A stretch of 51,538 nucleotides of DNA from positions 1 to 51,538 of IMG/VR virus record IMGVR_UViG_3300026078_000021. One strand, 5' to 3'. The position numbers and the translations under genes were made by a program. Each line of letters opens with the position of its first letter. The stretch's first letter is position 1. The stretch is from a virus. Under the pieces are notes generated by a model that was not told the origin of the DNA, ran no database searches, and was given only the letters and a program-made list of their open reading frames with translations. Of this stretch, positions 2,475 to 36,286 are shown in pieces.

Positions 2475-3005
2475 ATGACGGGAGGCGCTGTGCAGGAGCC
2501 CGAAGCTGCCGACGCGCAGGAGGCCACCGACCAGCACGCGGACGAGGAGAGGCTGACCTGCCTGAAATGCAGGCTGGAGCTGCCCGCCAACTGGTTCGCG
2601 CGCACGCCCGGCCAGGATGGCACCTGGCGGGTGGACGGCTGGTGCCGCGACTGCCGGGGCAAGTTGCGCGCGGCCAACCGCGCGCCGGCGAAGGGCACGC
2701 GGCGCGGGGACCGGGAGTACAGCAACGCGCGCAGCCGTGCGGTGGCCGCCGCGAACCGGCGCCTGCGCGAGGAGCACGAGGCGACCTACCAGCGGTATGT
2801 GCGTGAGGCCGCCGAGCGTACGCCCCTGCCGCCGAGCGATCCGGGCGACGCGAAACGCACGCAGGATCGGATGAACGTACACGCGCAGCACGCGCGGCGT
2901 GCGGCGCAGCGCCTGCGCGAGGACCACGCGGAGGCGTACGAGGATTACGTGGAGACGGAGCTGCGCGCGCAGGGCTATGAGCCGCGTCGGCCGAGGAAGC
3001 GGTGA
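2475..3005 (+). CDS. zinc-finger protein with charged helical tail
   Basis: A 176-residue protein. CLKC and CRDC pairs, separated by an ANWFARTPGQDG segment, at about residues 29-60 look like the zinc-binding knuckle found at the start of many phage HNH/endonuclease VII-like proteins. The rest is very rich in Arg, Glu and Ala with two similar helical blocks (RLREEHEATYQRYV and RLREDHAEAYEDYV), probably a duplicated helix. No catalytic HNH motif follows, so a nuclease role is not shown. It overlaps the WhiB gene by 4 bp (GTGA), which suggests co-translation. Confidence 0.75.
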   Translation: MTGGAVQEPEAADAQEATDQHADEERLTCLKCRLELPANWFARTPGQDGTWRVDGWCRDCRGKLRAANRAPAKGTRRGDREYSNARSRAVAAANRRLREEHEATYQRYVREAAERTPLPPSDPGDAKRTQDRMNVHAQHARRAAQRLREDHAEAYEDYVETELRAQGYEPRRPRKR

Positions 3006-3310
3006 ACCGGCCGGGGCCGCTGCGGTGGGAGCGGTGGCGCTCGCGGGCTGCATGCCAGGGCCTGCCGCTGGGGCTGACGAAGGCGTTCATCGCGGCGGCT
3101 CCGCTGGAGAGCGAGCGCATGTGGGCGCTGGGGTTGTGCGGCGGGTGCCCGGTGAAGCGGGAGTGCTATTTGTGGGCGTGGTCGGCGCGCGGGTTCGAGG
3201 GGATCGCGGGCGGGCGGTGTTGGCCGGCGGCGCGACGCAGTGTGGCGGGGAAGCGGGGGCCGGGTGCGGTGGCGGCGGCGCGGGTTTCGGCCGGCGCGTC
3301 AGGTACGTGA
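3002..3310 (+). CDS. WhiB-family iron-sulfur regulator
   Basis: A 102-residue protein with four cysteines in the WhiB pattern: C18 (RAACQG), then C46, C49 and C55 (CGGCPVKREC). A GFEGIAGGRCW segment follows, matching the Gly-Trp turn of the family in degenerate form, and then a basic tail. WhiB-like proteins hold a 4Fe-4S cluster, bind the principal sigma factor and are confined to Actinobacteria and their phages. In phages they can act as repressors or redirect host promoters. The GTG at 3002 overlaps the upstream stop (GTGA). This gene is a strong pointer to an actinobacterial host. Confidence 0.85.
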   Translation: MNRPGPLRWERWRSRAACQGLPLGLTKAFIAAAPLESERMWALGLCGGCPVKRECYLWAWSARGFEGIAGGRCWPAARRSVAGKRGPGAVAAARVSAGASGT

Positions 3311-30692: not shown

Positions 30693-31001
30693 CTAGGACA
30701 TGTTGATTTCGGTGAAGCACTGGATGTTCGTGACGGCGGCGTTCAGGCTCGCGGCCAGAGCGACACACTCATTGGCGACGAAGTCGCGCACGAGTTCACG
30801 CGCCAGGCGGATACCGGACTCCGGCCAGAAAATGGTCACCACCGCGCCCGATGCGCTCGCGGTGGCGGCGGTGTTGGACACCGCCGGGAAGATGATGCCG
30901 TTGAACGCATTGACGATCGTGGTGGCGTCGCCGTTGGTGTTGCCCGGCGCGCTCAGGGTCACGTACGTGCGGTACGCGAGAGTGCCCGCTGGTGCGGTCA
31001 C
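30693..31001 (-). CDS. small structural or head-completion protein
   Basis: A 102-residue protein. GTG 31001 follows CGGAGGTTGT, close to the shared late initiation site. It reads GTLAYRTYVTLSAPGNTNGD, TTIVNAFNGIIFPAVSN, FWPESGIRLARELVRDFVA and ends TNIQCFTEIN. It should follow the MCP directly, but the homing endonuclease gene now lies between them on the other strand. No family is recognised. Confidence 0.62.
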   Translation of the reverse strand: MTAPAGTLAYRTYVTLSAPGNTNGDATTIVNAFNGIIFPAVSNTAATASASGAVVTIFWPESGIRLARELVRDFVANECVALAASLNAAVTNIQCFTEINMS

Positions 31002-31053
31002 ACAACCTCCGTTGTAAGGCGATGGCATTCTGCAAGATGCCACCGCAGGGCGG

Positions 31054-31065: not shown

Positions 31066-31581
31066 ATGGATGAACTGTCGCTCGCCTACTACGCCGGTCT
31101 TCTCGATGGCGAGGGGCACATCGGCATCCACCGCACGGTCCGCAAGAGGGATCAGGGCGTTCAGTACGGCGGCCGGATGTCGCTGCGCATGTCGGAGAGG
31201 GAAGTGATCGAACAGTTCGCGGAAGATTTCGGTCTCTCTGCCGGGCCCGCGAACTGCGGCACCAGACATGCAAAGCGGGAGGTGTTCGGGGTGTCGGCCG
31301 AAGGCCGACGTTCGAGAGTCCTGCTAGAACAACTCCTGCCCTATCTGCGGGTGAAGCGCGCGCAGGCCGAGCTTGTCATCCGGCTTGAAGCCGAGAAGCG
31401 CGAGCCCGGACTGCGCAGCAGAAAGATCCCCACGAGTCGGCTAATGCCTGGTGGGGTCGTCGTCCGTAGCACCGCCTCAGCCATCGGGCCGGAGACCATT
31501 GCCCGATGGGAGGCGATGTACGTGGAGGTGCGCAAGTTGAACAGGCCGGAGCACGAGATCGCGCCCCGGCCTGCCGGTTAG
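31066..31581 (+). CDS. free-standing LAGLIDADG homing endonuclease
   Basis: A 171-residue protein with one LAGLIDADG helix at residues about 8-17 (YYAGLLDGEGHIGI), including the catalytic acidic residue. Single-motif members act as homodimers and cut long DNA sites of about 18-24 bp. Segments MSLRMSEREVIEQFAEDFG, REVFGVSAEGRRSRVLLEQL and RVKRAQAELVIRLEA match the usual fold. It is on the + strand, against the late operon. Its TAG stop overlaps the MCP TAA stop in antisense (TTAG at 31578-31581). The group I intron in the MCP gene ends only 65 bp further on. The endonuclease is outside the intron. Confidence 0.9.
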   Translation: MDELSLAYYAGLLDGEGHIGIHRTVRKRDQGVQYGGRMSLRMSEREVIEQFAEDFGLSAGPANCGTRHAKREVFGVSAEGRRSRVLLEQLLPYLRVKRAQAELVIRLEAEKREPGLRSRKIPTSRLMPGGVVVRSTASAIGPETIARWEAMYVEVRKLNRPEHEIAPRPAG

Positions 31582-33660
31582 GACCAGGTACCGGTCGAGC
31601 CGGAGCGGTCGGATTTCTGAATGCCCTGCATAATGCCGCAGTACTGCATTTCTGTTACCCACACCCACGACGGATGTGCGGCCACGTCATTTCTGCGCGG
31701 CTCTTACGCTCTCACGCAAGATCAGACCATATCTTGGACTTCTGGAGTCCCACCGTACATGGTCGTTGAACCTTCCCGTCGGGTTTCCCCAGGCGGGCTC
31801 GGCTGCTGATTGCCCCTGCTGCTTGCTTTTCAGGCGTTCACGCTCGGGCTTTCGCCCCACGTTGTAGCGCAAGCAGGTGAATCGGGTGTTCCAGCAATTC
31901 TCGGTGTTTTCATTCGCAGGTCGCCCTGCGACGGCCCCCTACTGAGGCGCGTTTGCAACCAAAGCCCCGTACATAAACATGCTGTAACGGAACGATGCGT
32001 CGATCACCGGCCACGAAATGGACAGGTAGTCCTGGACCGTGACGAACTCCCACACGTTGCTCACGTTCGACCAGGCGAACGGGAGCGTGTAGCTCATCGC
32101 CATGAGCGTGCCCTGCGGCAGCCACGGGTGCACCAACAGCTTGATGACGCTGCGGGTGATCGGGTTCTGGAACTCCGATACGGCTGCTCCGGCGCGGACA
32201 CCGGCCACGTCCGGCTGCTCGACGAACAGACGGTAAGCGGTGGTCGTGCCGCTCTGGACGATGTCGTTGCTCAGGCGCATCAGGTCGCCGCCCTCGCCGA
32301 TCAGCTCGGCCGGGTCGGCGCGGTAGGCCCCGGGGCCGTCCCACAGGCCCTGAAGCATCGTGTTGACATTCGTGATGTGCAGCACGTCGCCGACGGACTG
32401 GTTGATGTAGCCACCGTCCCAGCCGGCCGGGTAGACCTGGCCGTTGCCCTGGGAGTGCCCGGCGATGACCGGGATCAGGCCCTCCTGGGCGTTCGCCGAG
32501 CCCGTGCCGGTGTCGGCGGTCGGAGCCGTCGCGCCGGTGGTGTTCAGGGCGCCCTGGAGCGTGAAGTTCAGGCCGCCGACGCCGGACTGCATCAGGTGGT
32601 AGGTGCCGGCCGATGCGCCTGTGGTGACGTACAGGTTGTACTGGAGGGCGCCGGTGACCGGGGCGATCGTGACGTCCACGACCTGCCCGGAGGACCAGGC
32701 CACCGAAGCGCCGGTGGAGGCCGCCGTCTCACCCCAGTAGTTCGTGGCGGTCACCTCGACGAAAACGTTCGTCGTGATGCCGGTCAACGCGGACTCGCCG
32801 GAGTTGGCGGCGCGGGCCACGAGCGTCGGGGTGCCCGGGGTGGACAGGTTCGTGGAGGTGGCCGCGAGGTGCGCGACTTCCTCGTTGGACATGAACTCCT
32901 GGAGGAGGATCAGGTTTGCCAGGGCACTGATGTCCTCGAACCCCTGGCCGGCGAACTGCGCGAGCCAGGACAGCGACTCGCTCAGGCCCCAGAAGCGGTA
33001 GGGGACGTTGAGGTCGATGGAGTCCTGCACGCCGGAGCCTGGCAGGTTCAGCGGCCAGTTCTGGAGCGAGGAGGACCCGGTGACCAGCTCAGGGATGCCG
33101 AGCTGCACGAACTTGCCACCCGAGGTGCCGGTCTGAGAACCGCTCACGCCCGTGATGACCTTCGTACGGCGGGACGTACCCTGACCCGGGACACGCGGCA
33201 GCTTGTTGCGGATCGGGCTGTAGATCGGGTAGATCAAGCGGCTCGGTGCAACGAGATCGAACGGGACAAGACCCGAAGACAAAGGACTTGTCAACGTCAC
33301 GTTACGACCGATGAAATCGCTGATCTGGCCCGAGAGCTGACCCAGCATCTGCTGCATGCCATACGCCTGCGGCGTGGAGTTCAGGAACGACCCGAACTGT
33401 CCGACGAAGTCGGCCGACAGGCCCTTGACCACGGCCTGCGGGTCCGCGAGGGACTTACGCACCGCGTGCGTCAGGGCCATCTCCGCGCGCATGGAGCGCT
33501 TGAAAACCTCGTCATCGTCCTGCAAGGCGGCGTTGCCGCCGGGCCGGGCGAACCCGACCCCTTTGACCATGCTCGGCATCTTGCCGGCGAGCATGGCGTT
33601 CGGCTCGTCGTACTGGGCGGCCTCAGTCGCCAGCGACGAACCGTCGAGAACAACGGTCAC
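31578..33660 (-). CDS. major capsid protein, HK97 type, split by a group I intron
   Basis: Spliced as complement(join(31578..31646,31945..33660)): exon 1 gives 572 codons and exon 2 gives 22 plus TAA, 594 residues in all. Without splicing the frame stops at a TAG (31941-31939) two codons after the splice site. Exon 1 has a long N-arm (MVKGVGFARPGGNAALQ), a core (LTSPLSSGLVPFDLVAPSR, IYSPIRNKLPRVPGQG) and a region at about 285-400 like an inserted Ig/FN3 domain (VFVEVTATNYWGETAAST, YNLYVTTGASAGTYHL). The end of the joined product reads VANAPQ, YCGIMQ, then SGSTGTWS. GTG 33660 follows AAAGGGGTTGT, the late initiation site. Head identity is supported by the neighbours: protease upstream and decoration downstream. 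Confidence 0.92.
31647..31944 (-). ncRNA. self-splicing group I intron in the MCP gene (298 nt)
   Basis: On the - strand the conserved elements are P AATTGCTGGAAC (31899-31888), Q AATCAGCAGCC (31811-31801), R GTTCAACGACCA (31771-31760) and S AAGATATGGTCT (31735-31724). Helices visible by eye: P1 pairs exon GCGCCU with intron GGGGGC (one mismatch) across a CAGUA loop, with the splice-site U opposite G; P2 CGCAGG/CCTGCG closed by GCGA; P3 CACCG/CGGTG; P4 GCTG/CAGC; P5 extension CTGCTTGC/GCAAGCAG with a GAAA-capped stem; P6 CCCG/CGGG with GGG-GAAA-CCC; P7 GACCA/TGGTC; P8 GGACT/AGTCC; P9 TCTTGCG/CGTAAGA. The exon ends in U and the intron in G, as the family requires. No open frame for an endonuclease lies inside. 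Confidence 0.95.
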
Positions 33661-33691: not shown

Positions 33692-36286
33692 CTACGGGAT
33701 GATGTAGGTCGACAGGACGCGCTCCGCGTTCATGCGCTGAACCGGGTCGCCACTGTTGGCCAGACCCGTCAGATACCGGATGTACGCGGCACGCTCCTGT
33801 GCGGCCTTCTCCGCGCGCTGGGCGTCGCCGATCGCCTTCTCCACGGGAGAGGCGTCCTCGTCGACGGCCGACTTCCGTACCGCGCCCCGTGGCGGGGCCT
33901 GGGTCGGGTCGGGCTGGCTGCCCAACAGATCAATCTCCGCCTTGAGGGCGGTGATCTGGGTTTCGTACTCGTCGCGCAGCGCGGAGGTGTGCTCCGCGAC
34001 GAGAGCCTTGACGATCTCCGCGACGTCGTTCTTCTCGCCGGGAGCCTTCGGGGTGGTCAAAGGGGTCGCCGCCTTCGGCACGTTGGTCGCGCCCATCGCA
34101 GCGTCCAGCACCGGGCCGGACGGAGCCATTGGGCAGGCGTCCGGGTAGGTGTTCGCGATGTGGTCGTGCAGGCTGGCCAGGGCGTTGCGGGCGGCGTCCT
34201 GGGCGCGTGCGCCGTAGAACCCGCGTGCCGCGCCGCTGCCGGCGATGTTGGTGGGGTTGTTGCCCGCCTTGCTCGCCGGCGACGGGCGCTCCTGGCCGGT
34301 GGTGAGCGGACCCCGGGTGAAGTCGCCCGGCTCCGGGACGTGGCTGGATGGCGGAACGCCGCCGCCGACGCGCGAACCGGTCGCGTTCTGCGCGGCGTGG
34401 CCGCCGGTGATGTACGGGCGGGTGAACTTGCCCGGCGTCACCGCGTCCGCCATCGGCTTGAGCGAGGCAGTGGGGTACAGGGAGGTGAAGGACTTGTGCA
34501 GGGCGGCGCGGGCGTCGGCCAGCAGGTACGGGTCGGTGGCTTTGAGCGACGCGGCGGCCTCGGCCAGCTCGCGCAGCTCGTTCGCCTTGCGTGCCTTGCC
34601 CAGGTCCGCGTGCTCGTCGGCCAGGCCCATCCAGTACGCCGGGTCCAGCGCGTCCGTGAGGGACTTGAGCGAGGGGTAGGCGGCCAGGACATCGTCGCCG
34701 TGGTAGGCGGCGCACAGGGCGTCGTGGGCGCGCTGCTGCGCGTACCCGATTCCCTTCTGGCCGACGGACGCGGGGACTTTGTCCGGCGTCGGGTCCGGGT
34801 CGGTGCCCATCCCGGCGTCGTGCTCCAGCGGTTCCACGGTCGTGGTGCCGTCCGGTTCGCGGTGCGTACCGGCTGGCTCGACGCTGGAGGGCATCGCACT
34901 CTTCGTGGTCGGCGCGGGCAGTTTGGCGCCGCACTTCTTGCAGTATTTGACCTTGGTATCGGCGTGGTAGACCTTGCCGCAATCCGGGCAGGTCTTGCCG
35001 CCTGCCTTCTCGGCCGGCTTGGTCTCGGAGGCGTCGTCGCCGATCGGCTTGCCGCACCCCTTGCACGTGGTGGAGCCGGCCTTGTTGTAGGTGTTGCAGT
35101 CCTCGCACTGCACCGCGCGGCCCTTCGCCGGTTTCTTCGCGGCTTTATCCGCGCTCTCGCCGTTCTTCCACGCATCCGGCAGCTTCGCCTCGAACGCGGC
35201 GCCTTTGCGCTTGGCGATGCGGATGATGTTGGCTTTGATCTGGTCGGCGGAGAAGTTGTCGGAGCCTGCGCGGCCCAGGGAACGCGCCGCGTCGGCGACG
35301 TCCTGTGGGCTGACGATGGGGAAAGAACGGTCTTTGCCGGCGAAGTCCTCGGCGGGGATCTTGTCGCGGTCCGTGCCGCCGCCCACGTTGGGGTCCATGT
35401 CGCGCTTGGCCAGCCACACCGGGTAGCCGTCGTCGGTCAAGCCCTCGGCTTCGCCCTTGGCCCACCAGCGCTGCCATGCGGCGCGTTTGACCAGGTACTC
35501 GGTGCCGTCGGCGGACTCGCCGCGATTCGGCTCGCCCTTGAGCCACGCGTGGCGCTGCGTTTTCCACAGCATCTCAGGGGCGCGGGTTTTGGCGGTCGGG
35601 CCGTCGGGGTTGTCGGCGTCAACGTCTTTCGGGTCGTCGTCGGCGGCTTCGGCGGCGTGCTCGCCGGCCTCTTCGGTGTCCTCGCGGTCCGGTGGTTCCT
35701 CGGGGGAGCCGGTTTTGTGCAGGTGCGTTTCGGCGCTTTTCTCCAGCATGCCGTTCAGGTCGCCGAACTCCCAGTCCGCGTCGATGCCCTCGGATTTGAC
35801 GAGGGTGAAGCCGCAGTTTTTGTTCGCGGGGGAGTCCACGAGGGAGAGTTCGCAGATGGAGGTGCGTTCGTTGCCTCGGATGATGCCGCCGCGTGCCTTG
35901 CCGGACATGTCGCGCTCGATCACCGGGTGCGCGATCCCGACGCTGAAGGCGCGCAGGACGCGGTTCTTCACCAGGGCTTTCGCGGTCGGCTCGACCACCA
36001 GGGCTTTGACGAAGTGTCCGTGGGGGGTGGTCTCGACCTCCAGGCCGCGACCTGCGGGGTAGAGCTTCGGGTTGTGCTGGACGCGCAGGGTGCCGCCGTC
36101 GGAGAGCCAGTCCTGCATGGCTTTGGCGGACCACTGGGGGTCGACGATCTGCTGGTCGGTGTCGATACTGCCGTCGGTGGCCTTGCCGTAGACGACGAGG
36201 TTGCCGTCCGCGTCCTCCTCGGATTTCGTGATGTCGAAGCCGACGTACACCTTGTCGCTGTTGTCGGCGTCGATCAGCTTCGCCAC
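33692..36286 (-). CDS. head maturation protease fused to zinc ribbons and scaffold-like region
   Basis: An 864-residue protein. Residues 1 to about 165 form an HK97-type (U35-like) prohead protease, with a candidate catalytic His at 71 (RVQHNPKLYPAGRG) and Ser at 148 (CELSLVDSPAN). An acidic linker follows to about 230. A domain at about 320-375 (FPIVSPQDVADAARSLGRA) resembles one common in actinophage proteins of this type. Two zinc ribbons lie at 394-411 (CEDC, CKGC) and 433-452 (CPDC, CKKC). The C-terminal 400 residues are helical, with a coiled coil near 755-790, and probably act as scaffold. GTG 36286 follows AAAGGAGTTGT. The protease probably frees itself and the scaffold after assembly. 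Confidence 0.8.
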   Translation of the reverse strand: MAKLIDADNSDKVYVGFDITKSEEDADGNLVVYGKATDGSIDTDQQIVDPQWSAKAMQDWLSDGGTLRVQHNPKLYPAGRGLEVETTPHGHFVKALVVEPTAKALVKNRVLRAFSVGIAHPVIERDMSGKARGGIIRGNERTSICELSLVDSPANKNCGFTLVKSEGIDADWEFGDLNGMLEKSAETHLHKTGSPEEPPDREDTEEAGEHAAEAADDDPKDVDADNPDGPTAKTRAPEMLWKTQRHAWLKGEPNRGESADGTEYLVKRAAWQRWWAKGEAEGLTDDGYPVWLAKRDMDPNVGGGTDRDKIPAEDFAGKDRSFPIVSPQDVADAARSLGRAGSDNFSADQIKANIIRIAKRKGAAFEAKLPDAWKNGESADKAAKKPAKGRAVQCEDCNTYNKAGSTTCKGCGKPIGDDASETKPAEKAGGKTCPDCGKVYHADTKVKYCKKCGAKLPAPTTKSAMPSSVEPAGTHREPDGTTTVEPLEHDAGMGTDPDPTPDKVPASVGQKGIGYAQQRAHDALCAAYHGDDVLAAYPSLKSLTDALDPAYWMGLADEHADLGKARKANELRELAEAAASLKATDPYLLADARAALHKSFTSLYPTASLKPMADAVTPGKFTRPYITGGHAAQNATGSRVGGGVPPSSHVPEPGDFTRGPLTTGQERPSPASKAGNNPTNIAGSGAARGFYGARAQDAARNALASLHDHIANTYPDACPMAPSGPVLDAAMGATNVPKAATPLTTPKAPGEKNDVAEIVKALVAEHTSALRDEYETQITALKAEIDLLGSQPDPTQAPPRGAVRKSAVDEDASPVEKAIGDAQRAEKAAQERAAYIRYLTGLANSGDPVQRMNAERVLSTYIIP

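Follow-up and report, generated by a model that had tools for sequence, protein, structure and literature searches.

Comparison with related sequences confirmed that positions 31647-31944, on the minus strand of a 51,538-nucleotide stretch of the IMG/VR virus record IMGVR_UViG_3300026078_000021 (hereafter the window), constitute a group I intron near the 3' end of a gene predicted to encode the major capsid protein (MCP), in its C-terminal part. The intron is 298 nt long and contains no open reading frame, and its assignment draws on an Rfam match, junction rules, covariation and a leave-one-out profile. We consider it probable that it self-splices from the MCP pre-mRNA and has been spread by collaborative homing through a LAGLIDADG enzyme encoded next to it. 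This neighbor, and relatives of the MCP gene with several introns, go beyond the earlier note on this DNA, which had proposed the intron.

Splice junctions, fold and interrupted gene

Read on the minus strand from the GTG at 33660, exon 1 (31945-33660) comprises 572 codons ending in NAP. Its end and what follows it read ...GCA AAC GCG CCT CAG TAG, and the unspliced frame stops, as had been claimed, at a TAG (31939-31941) two codons past the 5' splice site. The minus strand resumes 298 nt on with ...AAATG CAG TAC TGC GGC ATT, which opens exon 2 (31578-31646, minus strand), a tail of 22 codons (QYCGIMQGIQKSDRSGSTGTWS) closed by the TAA at 31578-31580, to which splicing would extend the frame. 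A CAGTA repeat at both junctions would allow the cut to shift by up to five bases; the earlier note was right that a single position combines an exon-final U with an intron-final G, namely CCU↓CAGUAG...AAAUG↓CAGUAC (arrows mark the cut), and this rule returns the coordinates 31647-31944. The joined product would carry NAP followed by QYCGIMQGIQKSDRSGSTGTWS at its C-terminus (window product, NAPQYCGIMQGIQKSDRSGSTGTWS before the stop), giving a predicted MCP of 594 residues counted from the GTG, while unspliced RNA would yield one 21 residues shorter (573 residues).

All 14 of the homologues fetched first from IMG/VR (46-79% identity) have no intron here and read on in the frame that splicing would give, none of them stopping at the TAG. 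The nearest intron-less relative (locus L002) ends in NAPQYCGILQGIQKSDRSGSTGTWS, against NAPQYCGIMQGIQKSDRSGSTGTWS for the joined window product; the joined C-terminus thus matches that of relatives, precise excision would restore the host gene, and the claim that a group I intron interrupts the MCP gene is supported.

That the interrupted gene encodes the MCP is predicted from distant homology to annotated capsid proteins and from gene order. Its distant homologs include annotated major capsid or head proteins of Arthrobacter phage Mufasa8 and Alicyclobacillus phage MMB025, and a portal gene lies upstream; the AlphaFold model was of low confidence (58) and the fold search uninformative. The only match in the bacterial genome collection was a locus in Arthrobacter terricola. 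This lends indirect support to the earlier description of the virus as an actinophage, and the host is probably actinobacterial. Also upstream of the MCP gene, positions 33692-36286 (minus strand) encode an 864-aa protein whose N-terminus weakly matches head maturation proteases and whose middle carries a double zinc-ribbon motif, possibly an unusual protease/scaffold fusion.

The best Rfam family for the intron is RF00028 (Intron_gpI), which matched over its full model (1-253) with 45.4 bits (E 2.3e-10). The default Rfam scan of the window was empty because this score lies below the gathering score of 50 bits, which is a database threshold and not a structural feature. It is the only Rfam group I match in the whole virus record of 115,538 bases, and profiles of both intron subtypes described below found no other intron in the window. 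A DNA profile built from nine related introns, with the window intron left out, matched 31647-31947 with E 2.3e-66, and the minimum free energy of the intron has a z-score of -3.8.

The conserved core elements P, Q, R and S and helices P1 to P9, reported earlier on the minus strand, were all found, as was P9.1; they form the P3-P8 and P4-P6 core with the guanosine site in P7. All of the following positions are on the minus strand. P1 (31931-31952) pairs the 5' exon ACG-C-GCCU with the internal guide GGGGC-CGU, so that the U of CCU faces a G in GGGGC and forms the U.G wobble at the 5' splice site. It would set the 5' cut at CCU↓CAG, where exogenous guanosine would attack, and the joined exons would then encode the 594-residue MCP. 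P2 (31915-31930) is a hairpin with a GCGA loop in which all six pairs covary. The 5' strand of P3 (CACCG, 31902-31906) pairs with CGGTG at 31751-31755; the P4-P5 domain (31804-31896) has a long P5 extension, with the P4 strands at 31891-31896 and 31804-31809. The 5' strand of P7 (GACCA, 31760-31764) pairs with TGGTC at 31725-31729, the S element, and P8 (31736-31750) and P9 (31703-31720) are hairpins.

In an alignment of ten introns, P2, P3, P4, P5, P6, P6a, P7, P8, P9 and P9.1 are paired in 98.2% of cells and 29 of 45 pairs changed on both sides, on a structure taken from the window sequence and so somewhat biased in its favor. All 500 shuffles fell short on each of five covariation measures, and pairing dropped from 98% to 32-44% when the partners were shifted by 1-3 columns; chance is therefore excluded. 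The view of GACCA/TGGTC in P7 as a compensatory change was borne out, since the relatives have GATCA/TGATC, GACTA/TAGTC and GACTC/GAGTC at these positions.

The adjoining LAGLIDADG gene

Of particular interest is the gene at 31066-31581 on the plus strand, which is convergent with the MCP gene and encodes a free-standing LAGLIDADG homing endonuclease of 171 aa, as judged by profile, PDB and fold matches. Its TAG (31579-31581) overlaps the TAA of exon 2, and it lies outside the intron, 65 nt beyond it. The protein has a single LAGLIDADG motif (YAGLLDGEGHIGI), as in the I-CreI/I-CvuI type; it matched phrog_5046 (E 2.8e-22) and, in the PDB, I-CvuI (E 2.7e-7), and Pfam PF00961 scored below its cut-off. 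Its AlphaFold model (pLDDT 84) matched the folds of I-CvuI, I-CreI and I-MsoI, and in this model AGLLDGEG would form the LAGLIDADG helix, with an acidic catalytic residue, of an alpha-beta-beta-alpha-beta-beta-alpha fold. The motif DGEGHIGI is invariant. In the four closest intron-less relatives (L002, L003, L053, L054), no more than tens of bases separate the MCP stop from the next gene (window 30693-31043), and the endonuclease gene is therefore a clean insertion. One genome thus holds an endonuclease-less intron and a free-standing endonuclease, both of which are missing from the empty alleles.

The pair recurs in a second phage, IMGVR_UViG_3300036857_000457 (L027), found first through its endonuclease and recovered independently in a scan of MCP loci (as L093). 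Its endonuclease is 42-45% identical to that of the window and likewise converges on the end of the MCP gene. The MCP gene of L027 has an intron between the same two codons, although the exact cut is less sure, by one base, as the U before it appears paired with A and not G. Among matches to the window intron this one ranks first (77.5% identity over 231 nt), and it is the nearest neighbor in the intron tree, with weak support. An intron at this site occurs with an adjacent endonuclease in 2 of 2 cases, against 0 of 51 for the remainder of 53 distinct MCP loci, some of whose contigs end short downstream of MCP (Fisher p 0.0007). No such endonuclease was seen at other MCP loci in the scan or in 20 whole records searched. 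This recurrence suggests collaborative homing. The LAGLIDADG enzyme would cut intron-less MCP copies in or close to the insertion site, and the intron and the endonuclease gene would be copied together when the break is repaired from the window phage.

The most serious rival, which we judge unlikely, agrees that a group I intron is spliced here and holds that the LAGLIDADG gene is unrelated to it, having its own target and having arrived by intronless homing at the boundary between the MCP and the next gene; the intron would be an immobile relic or have come by reverse splicing. The pair is known from two phages only and the enzyme could target another sequence. Its gene stands outside the intron and on the other strand, free-standing endonucleases often insert between genes (PMC2988022), and many related MCP introns have no such endonuclease nearby. 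An unrelated neighbor would nevertheless have to be joined to the intron again in L027, where the endonucleases have diverged to 42-45% identity, and at no other MCP locus.

Features of the DNA around the site were also considered. Intron-less MCP DNA reads CCG↓CAGTACTGCGG at the insertion site, and in the empty sites of L052-L055 and L102 a perfect palindrome of 14-16 bp, which no other palindrome in those genes exceeds in length, spans it with its center 4 bp from the insertion point. This is suggestive of the preference of a homodimeric enzyme. The L027-type clade has no such palindrome, and the joined site of L027 itself (CCCT↓TCTACTGC) is not palindromic; for that reason the palindrome was rejected as proof of the endonuclease target. 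Dips in GC3 near the intron were not distinctive as a signal of co-conversion.

It is very unlikely that the intron is a degenerate element that no longer splices, with the 573-residue protein as the true MCP. The score under the Rfam gathering threshold and the frame left open up to the TAG would fit such an element, but every pair of P3, P4, P7, P8 and P9 can form in the window and these helices covary in relatives. The frame and the sequence of exon 2 are both conserved, although it could be expressed only through splicing. We retain the collaborative homing of a self-splicing intron as the preferred reading.

Introns elsewhere in the capsid gene family

An alignment-based scan recovered 62 MCP loci in 52 clusters, or 53 with the window. 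Junctions were placed so that the exon ended in U, the intron ended in G and the protein alignment ran on without a break. On this basis 10 of the 53 distinct loci have introns, about 22 in all, which occupy about 15 sites and number as many as five in a single gene, so that the gene is a hot spot for group I introns. The total is a minimum because the search peptide FRYSMFM spans an insertion site. The window, L059, L089, L101, L106 and L109 have one intron each, L113 two, L098 four, and L027 and L094 five each. Two intron subtypes are visible, and nearly all introns share GTAACA (or TAACA) just upstream of the 3' cut. Introns related to that of the window at other sites of the same gene scored 56-65 bits on RF00028; several others were missed by Rfam and are identified by the shared 3' end, the junction rules and a frame that stays open across the joins. 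The tree shows a tendency, with weak support, for introns from a single site to fall together.

In L027 (3914-7988) the MCP gene has five introns and six exons and is flanked by the LAGLIDADG gene. The joined exons, of which the fourth and fifth measure 38 and 42 nt, encode a 626-aa protein that aligns with the window MCP without a gap at any junction. An even smaller exon of 16 nt (GGGAAATGACCATGGT) lies in L094 (4759-5376) between introns of 306 and 296 nt, and the alignment score is 260 with it and 233 without; of the other introns in this gene, two encode DUF559 proteins and one is short. Altogether, DUF559 (PF04480, Vsr-like) nucleases that have HTH domains are encoded in six long introns of 985-1402 nt (L098:2462-3412, L101:2619-3416, L109:2319-3407, L113:2208-3203, L094:853-1878 and L094:2352-3416), and one of the nucleases also has NUMOD3. 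They are probable homing endonucleases, in a Pfam family still named for its unknown function.

The intron distribution bears on a last alternative, the least probable of all, in which incomplete splicing deliberately yields a mix of full-length and C-terminally shortened MCP. The stop two codons past the 5' splice site would give both products a defined length, but about 43 of the 53 loci have no intron at all, so there is no conserved need, and the introns are spread over about 15 different sites. We put at an even chance a broader reading, in which a phage clade, probably of Actinobacteria, has had its MCP gene colonized at about 15 sites by at least two group I lineages (up to five introns per gene, with a 16-nt exon), spread by the DUF559/Vsr-like nucleases and, at the C-terminal site, by the LAGLIDADG enzyme acting for an endonuclease-less intron.

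Searches by DNA pattern were also made. A strict pattern of the intron core found no match in viral contigs, a relaxed one found eight introns, and DNA searches of phages and plasmids gave partial core matches only (ICP1, LucasX and Bacillus phages). Vibrio phage ICP1 shows group I matches around an HNH gene (L026:1493-1784 and 2914-3246) and Xanthomonas phage LucasX one just after an RNA polymerase beta-like ORF (L025:2905-3243), with no intron annotated in either record. A 101-kb viral contig has four group I matches within about 3 kb (L020:5882-9045), a candidate multi-intron gene.

Related systems and significance

The earlier note knew of no intron at this MCP site in actinophages. We likewise found none described there in the open-licence literature, although a capsid intron at another position is known from mycobacteriophage LittleE, where it was proven by RT-PCR and N-terminal sequencing and considered most likely group I (PMC3706429). 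Its site is close to the N-terminal end of the mature protein, and it contains a LAGLIDADG-like ORF on the opposite strand, whereas the window intron is C-terminal with its endonuclease outside. A tail gene of BAKA carries an ORF-less intron of 265 bp, with spliced RNA seen by RT-PCR (PMC3706429). Both resemble the window intron as probable group I introns in actinophage structural genes with exon-final U and intron-final G. Capsid introns of actinophages being already known, it is the setting that merits follow-up.

Collaborative or trans homing is described for F-CphI with the cyanophage psbA intron and for T4 mobE with the nrdB intron (PMC3984707, PMC2988022, PMC6083498), where a free-standing endonuclease also serves a group I intron whose own endonuclease is absent or defunct. 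Those enzymes are EndoVII-like or HNH, while that of the window is I-CreI-like LAGLIDADG with putative target cleavage; no LAGLIDADG enzyme in a collaborative pair was found in the open-licence literature.

Essential phage genes that hold more than one group I intron and have small exons include Twort orf142, with three introns (Landthaler and Shub, 1999, cited in PMC11878797), and polymerase and terminase genes of the Bastillevirinae, with up to three (PMC11878797). Small exons and exon skipping are reported for such three-intron genes. Three is the maximum there, against up to five with a 16-nt exon in relatives of the window MCP. The MCP gene of Faustovirus E12, a giant virus of amoebae, also holds five group I introns, its smallest exons measuring 13 bp (PMC6247863), but its MCP is unrelated and its other seven introns are of another type. 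In the open-licence literature we found no paper on the window MCP family and no report of five group I introns in one phage gene. The published phage genes that we found carry at most three, and the load of this MCP family is, as far as we found, the densest in phages. If the broader reading is true, we would know of no phage gene in which introns are denser, and the pair would be the first phage collaborative homing pair with a LAGLIDADG enzyme.

The MCP is needed in hundreds of copies per virion, and every intron in its gene must therefore splice very efficiently. How group I ribozymes keep from skipping exons can be probed with a phage gene of six exons, one of them 16 nt long, and the adjoining endonuclease offers a bench route to how endonuclease-less introns gain mobility. 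Such capsid genes are easily mis-annotated in metagenomes, since the reading frame is broken at each intron and Rfam scores many of the introns under its threshold or misses them.
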